This document shows, piece by piece, positions 14,846 through 19,016 of a stretch of DNA of 32,033 bases. Within the stretch, counting starts at the first letter, position 1; the number at the start of each line of letters is the position of its first letter. Origin of the DNA: Micavibrio sp. (GTDB taxonomy: Bacteria; Pseudomonadota; Alphaproteobacteria; Micavibrionales; Micavibrionaceae); contig JALTAZ010000130.1 in the NCBI GenBank assembly GCA_027075555.1, forward strand, positions 1-32,033, in the 5' to 3' direction. The notes below the pieces were generated by a model, which had not been told where the DNA came from, did not search any database, and saw nothing but the letters and a program-made list of their open reading frames with translations. Made by a program: the position numbers and the translations under genes.

Positions 14846-15994
14846 CTATGATGGTTTTATTTCAGGTATTAATTCTATTACACGTTTAAATATCTTGGTT
14901 AGGTCTTCAAGATCTTTGATACTGGCATTTTCATTTATCTGGTGGATAGTTTTATTTATTCCGCCAAATTCTACAACGGGGCAGTATTTAGAAATAAAAC
15001 GAGCATCAGATGTTCCGCCATTTGTTGTAAATTCCGGTGTATAATTAGTTATATCTTTAACGGCGGTTTTTACTATATCTGACCATGTCCCTGGTTTGCT
15101 CAGGAAGCTTTCTGAACCATAAATTAAATCAAGTTCGTAACTATGTCCTGTATTTTTCAGTATATCGTGAATTTTTCGACCTAGTGTTTTTCCACTCCAT
15201 AAATCGTTAAATCTAATGTTAAAATGGGCTTTTCCACTTTCTGGGATAACATTATCGGCGGTATTGCCAACATCTATTGTTGTTATTTCAAGATTTGTTG
15301 GTGGAAAAAACTCTGATCCTTCATCAAAGCAAAATTCATTTAAAGCACAAAGCATATTAATAAGCCTTGGCATAGGGTTATCTGCCAAATGCTGATAGGC
15401 AACATGTCCTTGCTTTCCTTTTACTTTTAATATTCCAGTTAACGACCCCCTGCGTCCGATTTTAATTTCTTGTCCTAAATAATCGGGGTTAGTTGGCTCA
15501 CCAATAAGGGCAACATCTGGAATATGATTATTTTCTTTCATCCACTCCAAAACTTTTACGCTTCCATTTATGGCAGAACCTTCTTCGTCTCCAGTTATAA
15601 GCAGGCTTATTGATCCTTGGGAAGTATTATTTTCCAGATATTCTGATATCGCAGCAATAAATGCAGCAACCGACCCTTTCATATCACTAGCTCCACGCCC
15701 ATATAAGATCCCATCTTCAATTTGTGGATCAAAGGGGTTAAATTTCCATGCTTCAATTGGTCCTGTTGGCACAACATCAGTATGACCCGCATAGCAAAGA
15801 TGGGGTGCGTTAGTTCCAAGTCTAGCAAATAAATTTAAAACTTTTTCACTATCTTCTCCAAATTCCAATAGATGACATTTAAAGCCAAGGGCTGATAATT
15901 GCTCTGATAAGAAAACCAGTGCGCCCTCATCTTTTGGAGTAACAGAAGGGAAGGAGATAAGTTTTTTTGTAAGTTCAATAACATCATAAATCAT
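14846..15994 (-). CDS. dapE: Succinyl-diaminopimelate desuccinylase
   Basis: DapE, a di-zinc M20-family hydrolase, converts N-succinyl-LL-2,6-diaminopimelate to LL-diaminopimelate and succinate for lysine and peptidoglycan synthesis. Zinc ligands are recognisable in CYAGHTDVVPTG, GRGASDMKGS, TGDEEGSAINGS (catalytic and ligand Glu), GEPTNPD and the late FGGINKTIHQINE histidine. The 382-residue length is usual. It is the last gene of a minus-strand run dapD - HD protein - dapE, so two enzymes of the succinylase branch flank the HD gene. The ATG at 15994 gives the typical N-terminus VIELTKKLISFPSVTPKDEG. Confidence 0.97.
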   Translation of the reverse strand: MIYDVIELTKKLISFPSVTPKDEGALVFLSEQLSALGFKCHLLEFGEDSEKVLNLFARLGTNAPHLCYAGHTDVVPTGPIEAWKFNPFDPQIEDGILYGRGASDMKGSVAAFIAAISEYLENNTSQGSISLLITGDEEGSAINGSVKVLEWMKENNHIPDVALIGEPTNPDYLGQEIKIGRRGSLTGILKVKGKQGHVAYQHLADNPMPRLINMLCALNEFCFDEGSEFFPPTNLEITTIDVGNTADNVIPESGKAHFNIRFNDLWSGKTLGRKIHDILKNTGHSYELDLIYGSESFLSKPGTWSDIVKTAVKDITNYTPEFTTNGGTSDARFISKYCPVVEFGGINKTIHQINENASIKDLEDLTKIFKRVIELIPEIKPS

Positions 15995-16004
15995 AAGCAG
16001 AAGT

Positions 16005-17002
16005 TTATGCTATGGGCTCGTTCTTGTCATCATTAGAATTATCATTAACGGGATATTCTATCTCAACAATTTGTTCTAAATTATCTTGCATATGAGTATC
16101 AGGATATATTTTTCTTATGCGTTCTGCCGGAACAATAAGCGGGTGCAATCCTGAAGGCATGTCCTTGAAAATATTATTAGGCATGGAATAGCATAGCTCA
16201 TCATCATTTGGTAATTTTTTACCTGTATTTACGGTGTGAAATCTTGATACTTTGATTTCTTTTTTTATTACCTCTTCCATTATTTCATATAAAAGCGCTT
16301 GGTTTGGGAATAGTGCGCTTGCTGTGGGTATGTAATCTTCTTGTAGTTGAAGCGTTTTTGCGGTGTAATCATGCATGTTTTTGATATCTTTTACACCTAT
16401 AAGAGTCATAATGTTGTGAGCGCGGTCAAACATCTTTGCAACAGATGCATTTTTGTCTTTTGCCACTGTTTGGTAATATGCGTAATCATGCGCATGACGT
16501 AGATCACCATTTTTCCCATATTTTTTACTAATGGCATCAAAACTTAATTTTAGCTGCTTTATTTTGTAATTTGATTTTATTCCATTATCATTTAGATATT
16601 GTTCAATATAACTTGGTTTTAAGTTAAAATCTTCACCAAGATCATGGCAAAAAATTAGACTCATAACTGATTCGGGGTCATCTATATATAAACCATTTTC
16701 CATCGCACTGATCAGCCATAAGGCTTGTGTAACCTCATGTAGTGCACTTGGGGTAATATCATCTTTTCTGGTTTTACCTTCATTAAGATTAAGCATTAAA
16801 TCTAATAAAATATTGGCTTGATTATAATTTCTGCTTATAAGCCATGATCTAAGATCATCAACCAAATTATCGAAATTCTCAATAACAGTTTTTCTTCGGA
16901 ATCGTAAAGACCTGTTAGCATTAAATGCTTAGAAAAGCTTTGAGCTTTCATAAAGCTATGTCGGGTTGCACCTTTTTTAAAAGAATCTGTTGGCTTTTCC
17001 AT
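16005..17002 (-). CDS. SpoT-like HD-domain phosphohydrolase with apparent -1 frameshift near its start
   Basis: The ORF track shows only 286 codons from a TTG at 16865, but sequence with coding character continues upstream. An ATG at 17002 opens MEKPTDSFKKGATRHSFMKA and runs in another frame to GLYDSEEK, where an A5 run (16889-16893) lies. One extra A, or a one-base backward slip of the Lys tRNA there, joins it to TVIENFDNLVDDLRSW of the main frame, giving 332 residues. The body has the layout of the RelA/SpoT hydrolase half: RKDDITPSALHEV, CHDLGED (HD-xx-ED) and KMFDRAHNIMTL, close to the KLADRLHNMRTL box. No synthetase or regulatory domain is present. A small alarmone hydrolase role is inferred; another nucleotide is possible. 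A sequencing indel, real mutation or programmed slippage cannot be separated here. Confidence 0.6.
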
Positions 17003-17113: not shown

Positions 17114-17965
17114 TTATTCACGTAACAGATCATTTATGCCAGTTTTACTTCTTGTGCGCTCATCAACGCGCTTTACAATAACTGCGCAAGCAAGGCTTGG
17201 TGCAGGTAATCCATTAGGCATGGTTTTATCAGATGGTAGTGTTCCAGGGATTACAACTGAATATGCTGGTACTCTACCCATGTAAATTTCACCAGTTTGT
17301 CGATCTATAATTTTGGTTGAGGCACCAAGAAATACGCCCATGGAAATAACAGAGCCTTTTTCAACAATTACGCCTTCGGCAACTTCTGATCTTGCGCCGA
17401 TGAAAACATTATCTTCTATAATTACTGGTTCTGCTTGAAGTGGCTCTAAAACTCCGCCAATGCCCACCCCGCCAGAGATATGGCAATTTGCACCAATTTG
17501 TGCGCAAGAGCCAACAGTTGACCAAGTGTCAATCATTGTACCTTCCCCGACGTAAGCTCCAACATTCAAGAAGCAAGGCATTAAAACTGCGTTTGGCGCG
17601 ATATATGCAGAGTGGCGTACGATAGAATCGGGGACGGCTCTAAATCCTGCATCGTTGAATTTTTTTTCGTCCCAGCCAATAAATTTGCTCTCTACCTTAT
17701 CATACCAATTTGCATTTCCAGGACCGCCAGAAATGACATGGTTAGGGTTTAGGCGAAATGATAAAAGCACTGCTTTTTTAAGCCATTGATGAACAATCCA
17801 GCCATTTTCTGATGGGCTGGCAACTCTTGCTTTACCGCTATCTAGCAAATTAAGTGCATCATTAACGGATTCCCGATATTCGCCCTGGGTAGCAGTATTT
17901 ATATTATCTCTATTATCCCAAGCAGCATTTATTGTTGTTTCTAATTGTGCATATATATCAGCCAT
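17114..17965 (-). CDS. dapD: 2,3,4,5-tetrahydropyridine-2,6-dicarboxylate N-succinyltransferase
   Basis: DapD adds succinyl from succinyl-CoA to tetrahydrodipicolinate, the entry to the succinylase branch of diaminopimelate and lysine synthesis. The left-handed beta-helix core is clear ([52 protein letters not shown]). The ORF track begins 17 codons too early at 18016. The ATG at 17965 gives the typical N-terminus [20 protein letters not shown], is preceded by AAGAGA, and makes 283 residues, the family's usual length. It is divergent from the FemAB-like gene with about 50 bp between them, and upstream of the HD gene and dapE on the same strand. Confidence 0.96.
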
Positions 17966-18001
17966 ATTTTTATATCTCTTTTTAAATAAAATAATCATTC
18001 T

Positions 18002-18015
18002 TGTTGAATTCAACA
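18002..18015. promoter_or_regulatory. 14-bp perfect palindrome between dapD and the FemAB-like gene
   Basis: TGTTGAATTCAACA is a perfect inverted repeat lying in the roughly 50-bp divergent region, touching the annotated FemAB ATG. It could be an operator for a dimeric regulator. Palindromes of this size are expected by chance a few times in 32 kb of AT-rich DNA, so position is the only support. Confidence 0.25.
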
Positions 18016-19016
18016 TGAAGTGCGCTCAAAATCAAGCTATCATGAAACAAAAGTCTGTAAAAAATCAAAGTAAATATAGCATTGAGTGGGATAATATACC
18101 TTCTAAGCAGTGGAGGTCATATTTAATGCAAGTTACGCGCCTTAATTTATTGCAGTCTGAGGAATATGCGCTTGCAATGGCAAAAATGAATAAGCAGCGA
18201 ATTAAACGTGGTGTAATTTATTGTGATGGTGAAAAAGCGGGCATTGTTCAGATTTTAGAAGTTGGTATTTTTAAAAATGCTGTTCATGCTGTTCTATTAG
18301 ATCGTGCGCCATTATGGTTTGATGGTTTTGGCAGGTTTAGAGATTTCAAAGGATTCTTAGAGATTTTCTCAAAGCAGTTTCCAAAGCGCCTAGGGCGCAA
18401 AATCCGTTTTATTCCTGAATTTGAAGATAGCTCAAGATCTGTATCAGCAATGAAAGAATATGGCTATAACTCTATAAGCACAGAAGGTTATCAAACCATA
18501 TGGCTCAACCTAAAGCCAGATATAGAAATTTTAAGAAAAAATCTTAATAAGAAATGGCGTAATATGCTTAATCAATCAGAGCGTAGCGCTTTGGAAGTTG
18601 TGTGGAGTGAAGGAGGAGCTAATTTTGCATGGCTTATGACTAACTATGCAAAAGATAGGGCGCAAAGGGGCTATGATGGCCCTTCATTAAAAACTATTAT
18701 TTCTTTATCTGGTGAATTCTCTCGTGGGCAAAATATGCTAATAGGAACAGCAATGTTGGATAGTAAACCAATAGCCGCTATATTAATTTTTATCCACGGT
18801 CGAAGTGCAACCTATCAAATAGGGTACACATCGGATAAGGGGCGAGAGTGTCGCGCTCATCATTTGTTGTTATGGTCGGCTCTAGAGCAGCTAAAAGGAA
18901 GGGATATAGATGAGTTTGATCTTGGAGGCGTCAATAATAAAAGCGCTGAAGGCGTTAGGATTTTTAAAAAAGGTCTTGGCGGAGAAGTCGTTAAAACTCT
19001 TGGTATGTATCATTAG
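18015..19016 (+). CDS. FemAB/GNAT-like peptidoglycan-associated acyl or aminoacyl transferase
   Basis: This 333-residue protein resembles the FemABX branch of the GNAT superfamily, whose best-known members use aminoacyl-tRNA to add residues to peptidoglycan stem peptides. Visible features are [20 protein letters not shown] followed by [10 protein letters not shown], the usual central FemAB pattern. The C-terminal GNAT half has [32 protein letters not shown] and [20 protein letters not shown]. It has no signal peptide, fitting a cytoplasmic enzyme. Start choice is open: ATG 18015 has no clear ribosome site and overlaps the palindrome, and ATG 18042 is equally possible. Divergence from dapD fits a wall-precursor role, but the acceptor and donor are not deducible from sequence. 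Confidence 0.75.

Follow-up and report, generated by a model that had tools for sequence, protein, structure and literature searches.

Introduction

Small alarmone hydrolases (SAHs), such as the enzyme from P. aeruginosa (6yvc/6z3o) and metazoan MESH1 (3nr1), are stand-alone HD-domain proteins that lack a synthetase and carry HDxxED and DRxHN-type motifs. The SAH of Xanthomonas is known to hydrolyze (p)ppGpp, (pp)pApp or NADPH (PMC9765508). Programmed -1 frameshifting occurs at Z_ZZN tetramers in IS elements; in E. coli, the A_AA.A tetramer remains near background without a stimulator and gives the weakest response among the six tetramers that respond to a pseudoknot (PMC4066793). Slippage during transcription usually starts from about nine A residues (PMC1088944). 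According to the authors of GeneTack, a programmed frameshift needs a conserved site, while a homology-validated frameshift found as a singleton represents a sequencing error or a recent indel (PMC3711429).

Here we analyze a stretch of 32,033 nucleotides of a Micavibrio sp. genome (contig JALTAZ010000130.1), referred to as the window, in which a probable SAH-like gene changes frame at a run of five A residues.

A probable orphan SAH-like hydrolase

The main frame of the gene (16005..16888, minus strand) encodes a small-alarmone-hydrolase-like HD domain. The AlphaFold model of the 294-amino-acid main-frame protein has a pLDDT of 88.7, and the top 15 Foldseek matches in the PDB were all alarmone hydrolases (probability 1.00), the best of them being the P. 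aeruginosa SAH with a target-normalised TM-score of 0.71-0.75 at 15-18% identity. A profile built from the family matched Rel enzymes over the HD motifs (best E-value 1.7e-6). Both the HDxxED and the DRxHN-type motifs are present; H51, HDLGED 82-87, D155 and N159 are kept (numbered in the 294-residue reading), and R41, H51, H82, D83, E86, D155 and N159 are invariant in 14 sequences, that of the window included. The downstream catalytic domain is thus intact and SpoT/Rel-like, in support of an earlier note on this DNA that had described it as intact and SpoT-like.

With the known SAHs, the protein shares its predicted fold, its motifs and the stand-alone HD domain without a synthetase. It differs from them in its low identity (about 15-18%), its larger size (about 330 amino acids, with N- and C-terminal extensions), its status as a predicted hydrolase and its gene's position between dapD and dapE. 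To the hydrolase domain of Rel/SpoT proteins (HD_4) it is tied by the profile match of its family over the HD motifs, but it possesses neither the synthetase nor the regulatory domains of these enzymes. The genome encodes a single synthetase domain (PF04607), which belongs to a separate Rel protein of 763 amino acids and not to the SAH-like protein; likewise, an HD_4 search of the genome retrieved this Rel alone and did not match the SAH-like gene. No Pfam or NCBIfam family matches the protein, and among the PHROGs it was matched by PHROG 15275, a family of unknown function (E-value 3.5e-11). Since one ordinary 763-amino-acid Rel is encoded elsewhere in the genome, the gene probably represents, to judge from sequence and structural model, an orphan and divergent SAH-like alarmone hydrolase.

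Position of the frame break

The gene lies mid-contig on the minus strand between an upstream dapD-like gene (17114..18016, minus strand) and a downstream dapE-like gene (14846..15994, minus strand), both of them conserved neighbors; we take these names from what is established about the two families. Its 5' coding segment (MEKPTDSFKKGATRHSFMKAQSFSKHLMLTGLYDSEE; 16894..17002, minus strand) is read in a frame that opens with an ATG at 17002-17000 and continues out of register to a TAA at 16837-16835, giving 55 codons in total. The main HD frame is set one base back from this ATG frame and is open from a point 5' of the A5 run to the stop codon at 16005-16007. The two frames meet at GAAGAAAAACTG, whose A5 run occupies positions 16889-16893 (minus strand). 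A mechanical ORF finder starts the gene only beyond the run, at a TTG (16863..16865, minus strand) that is preceded by no good Shine-Dalgarno (SD) sequence. The positions given in the earlier note for the ATG, the A5 run and the TTG are all correct, and so is its arithmetic that a step back of one base joins the two frames, but the joined product is one residue longer at this point than that of any relative.

The true start of the gene

Searching the genus and family, we found homologues in 16 genomes, that of the window among them, out of 104 in the family; a single-sequence scan of genome contigs found no relative, and no hits came from viral contigs when these were scanned for an exact pattern. 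In all relatives examined, a single frame runs without interruption through the position of the break, and the ten of them that can be aligned through the junction follow the pattern G-L-Y-x-S-E-x-D-V-x-x-N-F. The peptide encoded by the upstream frame, SFMKAQSFSKHLMLTGLYDSEE, resembles the N-termini of the relatives: by tblastn it is 48-53% identical to three relatives in the genus, close to the 40-56% found for the main domain. When the 37-amino-acid upstream peptide was aligned with the N-termini of L002, L003, L004 and L008, scores of 64-80 were obtained, whereas the shuffle maxima lay at 37-45 and none of 1000 shuffles reached the real scores; the alignments to the N-termini of other relatives were weaker (rows L012 and L013 were left out of this test). 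The earlier note's proposal of a continuous, plausible N-terminus is borne out by these scores. Instead of beginning at the TTG and showing no similarity 5' of it, which by the earlier note's own criterion would have refuted its proposal, the homologues extend beyond this codon in the 5' direction, where they resemble not only the upstream peptide but also the main-frame stretch VIENFDN. Since the relatives possess an uninterrupted frame and most of their N-termini match far above shuffles, the upstream ATG frame encodes the genuine N-terminus. The natural start of the family is not the TTG at 16865, an artefact of the ORF caller that could at most be usable for re-initiation.

Nature and age of the change

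Conservation of the N-terminus was not accompanied by conservation of the frameshift, which occurs in none of the ten alignable relatives and is, among the genomes seen, private to that of the window. The gap between the Tyr and Val codons at the junction measures 15 nt in ten out of ten alignable relatives and 17 nt in the window, a net difference of +2 nt or, equivalently, one base lost and one codon gained. Loss of a single A as the cause does not fit these lengths. An A5 run at the junction position is absent from every relative. A -1 slip would return the ribosome to the right frame, but its product carries one extra residue and loses an Asp conserved without exception in nine relatives from the genus and a neighboring genus.

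The downstream frame of the window contains no further stop codons and no second indel. Outside the junction, the window differs at only two of 53 otherwise invariant residues, and several intact copies differ at more. Accelerated evolution of the catalytic part was not found, and the window's protein is roughly as similar to those of the relatives as these are among themselves: measured against the relative G009, the HD protein of the window has an identity of 0.486 and those of the genomes G005 and G003 have 0.494 each, while in the same comparison DapE of the window reaches 0.739 versus 0.790 and 0.780. An old pseudogene was rejected on the absence of stops and of excess change at invariant sites, so that old decay is unlikely, as the earlier note had argued from the intact catalytic domain. 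Given the lack of relaxed evolution in these comparisons, any loss of the gene would be recent. Phase variation was rejected as well, as the site has no long tandem repeat.

Frame integrity elsewhere in the assembly

We compared about 495 kb of the window's assembly with 2.0 Mb of G009 (266 orthologue pairs, about 90,000 aligned amino acids), window by window for frame, and recovered the known case as a positive control. Two further genes were flagged. One flag (L054) was rejected as a frameshift, because the start of the reference ORF had been placed too far 5', over a conserved leader; the other was a clean gene split. The SAH-like gene and this split are thus the only real frame breaks in the 266 pairs. 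The split gene (L048:5352-6424) is response-regulator-like; it forms one ORF in G009 but here falls into two that are read in different frames, and the second of these has its own ATG right after the first stop. The leader at L054 (14524-14634) lies 5' of a pilin-like gene with a type IV prepilin N-terminus; despite being apparently non-coding, it shows strong conservation in the comparison of G000 with G009.

Origin of the frame break

Of all the copies examined, only that of the window is out of frame. The break is therefore most likely due either to an ordinary mutation of recent date or to an error of assembly, and not to a built-in frameshift switch. We favor a genuine, recent, lineage-specific indel in an orphan, divergent SAH-like gene, to which we assign a probability of about 0.52; this figure and the standing of the three other readings are matters of judgement and were not computed. 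Genus and family relatives read through the junction in one frame with homologous N-termini, their uniform 15-nt gap contrasts with the window's 17 nt, the assembly is otherwise clean in the frame check, the site is not near a contig end, and members of the genus can do without the gene, as G008 lacks it and has dapD and dapE adjacent and G001 and G010 yielded no match. The undamaged downstream frame does not favor this reading, as it is expected equally of a functional gene that has been wrongly assembled. Ranked second, and clearly the less probable of the two though a serious contender, is an artefact of consensus or assembly: an intact gene in the living organism, with a false indel or a junction between mixed strains in the contig. 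The change may also belong to a minor allele. The absence of any decay in the N-terminal and downstream parts and the draft state of the genome (161 contigs) speak for an artefact, and so does the expectation of the GeneTack authors that homology-validated singleton frameshifts are mostly sequencing errors (PMC3711429). The present case resembles those singletons in that its frame transition is validated by homology and confined to one genome, and differs from them in having, as far as we found, no earlier annotation. Against such an artefact stand the near absence of coding indels elsewhere in the assembly, with one other real break in about 495 kb and 266 orthologue pairs, the shortness of the A run (just five residues), and the net change of +2 nt, which is unlike the single-base error expected at a homopolymer. 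In the sequence, the net +2 nt change at the A-rich site breaks the frame 37 codons after the start. If the indel is real, most ribosomes that set out from the ATG would terminate once they had read 55 codons, and full-length protein would therefore be lost or cut to trace leakage or re-initiation. We infer both the presence of the change in the living cell, and not just in the consensus, and its effect on expression.

A real break might still permit an N-terminally truncated enzyme to be made, if ribosomes initiate internally or re-initiate after termination close to the TTG at 16865. The catalytic domain starts 3' of the break with nearly all invariant residues kept, and the stop of the upstream frame (16837-16835) is just 28 nt beyond the TTG. 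We nevertheless consider this improbable: a convincing SD sequence before the TTG was not found, the TTG corresponds to residue 9 and would fall within the first predicted helix (H6-19), and the N-terminal segment is still well conserved and so has not long been free to drift. Least probable by far is programmed -1 slippage at A_AAA as a device that sets the level of the enzyme, one of the readings raised in the earlier note, which our data do not support. In its favor, the tRNA for Lys would be able to re-pair, the frame 3' of the site is intact and open, and an AU hairpin of 7 bp follows; folding of the first 123 nt downstream is also slightly stronger than that of shuffled sequences (z = -1.97). 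The larger 301-nt region, however, folds no better than shuffles (z = -0.65), and stimulators of the SD-like kinds listed in PMC4066793 are absent from the 30 nt upstream. Like the Z_ZZN sites of IS elements, the window has a slippery A_AAA in the right register, but this is an isolated tetramer and not part of a heptamer, is the weakest of the responsive motifs, shows no strong stimulator, and is unconserved, the break being common to no relative. Slippage would join the frames, but given the net difference of +2 nt from the relatives its product would depart from the protein length of the family, being one residue longer than all others, and would also lack the near-invariant Asp. We give equally little credence to the idea that the chromosomal hydrolase of this species is expressed only via -1 slippage or coupled re-initiation at its broken 5' end, with the lineage-specific frameshift now throttling an alarmone turnover that is tied to the lysine/DAP gene pair. 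Transcriptional slippage was rejected, since the run of five A residues falls short of the usual nine or so (PMC1088944).

Distribution and dapD-dapE context

As a singleton break of a sort found in many genomes, the frameshift itself is of little consequence. The lasting point is that the broken gene belongs to a divergent family, SAH-like and without a match in Pfam or NCBIfam, whose members lie between dapD and dapE throughout the Micavibrio-related alphaproteobacteria. This arrangement was found in 12 of 12 relatives with both flanks visible (12 of the 13 loci L172-L184; L177 ends before dapD could be seen). One of these relatives (L183) is a genome titled Micavibrio aeruginosavorus. In G001 and G010, dapE adjoins other genes. 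If the protein is active, the diaminopimelate/lysine gene cluster would contain a hydrolase of alarmones or nucleotides, which predicts that this pathway is connected to the stringent response. Alarmone turnover may in this way be coupled to lysine/DAP synthesis, and one apparent loss in the genus (G008), with two further possible losses, together with one broken copy would allow a comparative test of this coupling.

Several copies depart from the common form. Very diverged HD proteins are encoded between dapD and dapE in G007 (L164) and G006 (L167), with best E-values of 0.017 and 8e-5, respectively, to the window's protein, hinting at rapid evolution at this site. In G004 (L006:60-2069), two HD units are fused in tandem in a protein of 677 amino acids, and the catalytic motif has been lost from the second, where VHGLGKNF replaces AHDLGEDH, suggesting a pseudo-hydrolase partner domain. 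A relative with 27% identity is encoded on a viral contig of 524 kb (IMGVR_UViG_3300037418_001546; L185:3001-3540), and SAH-like genes may also occur in large phages.
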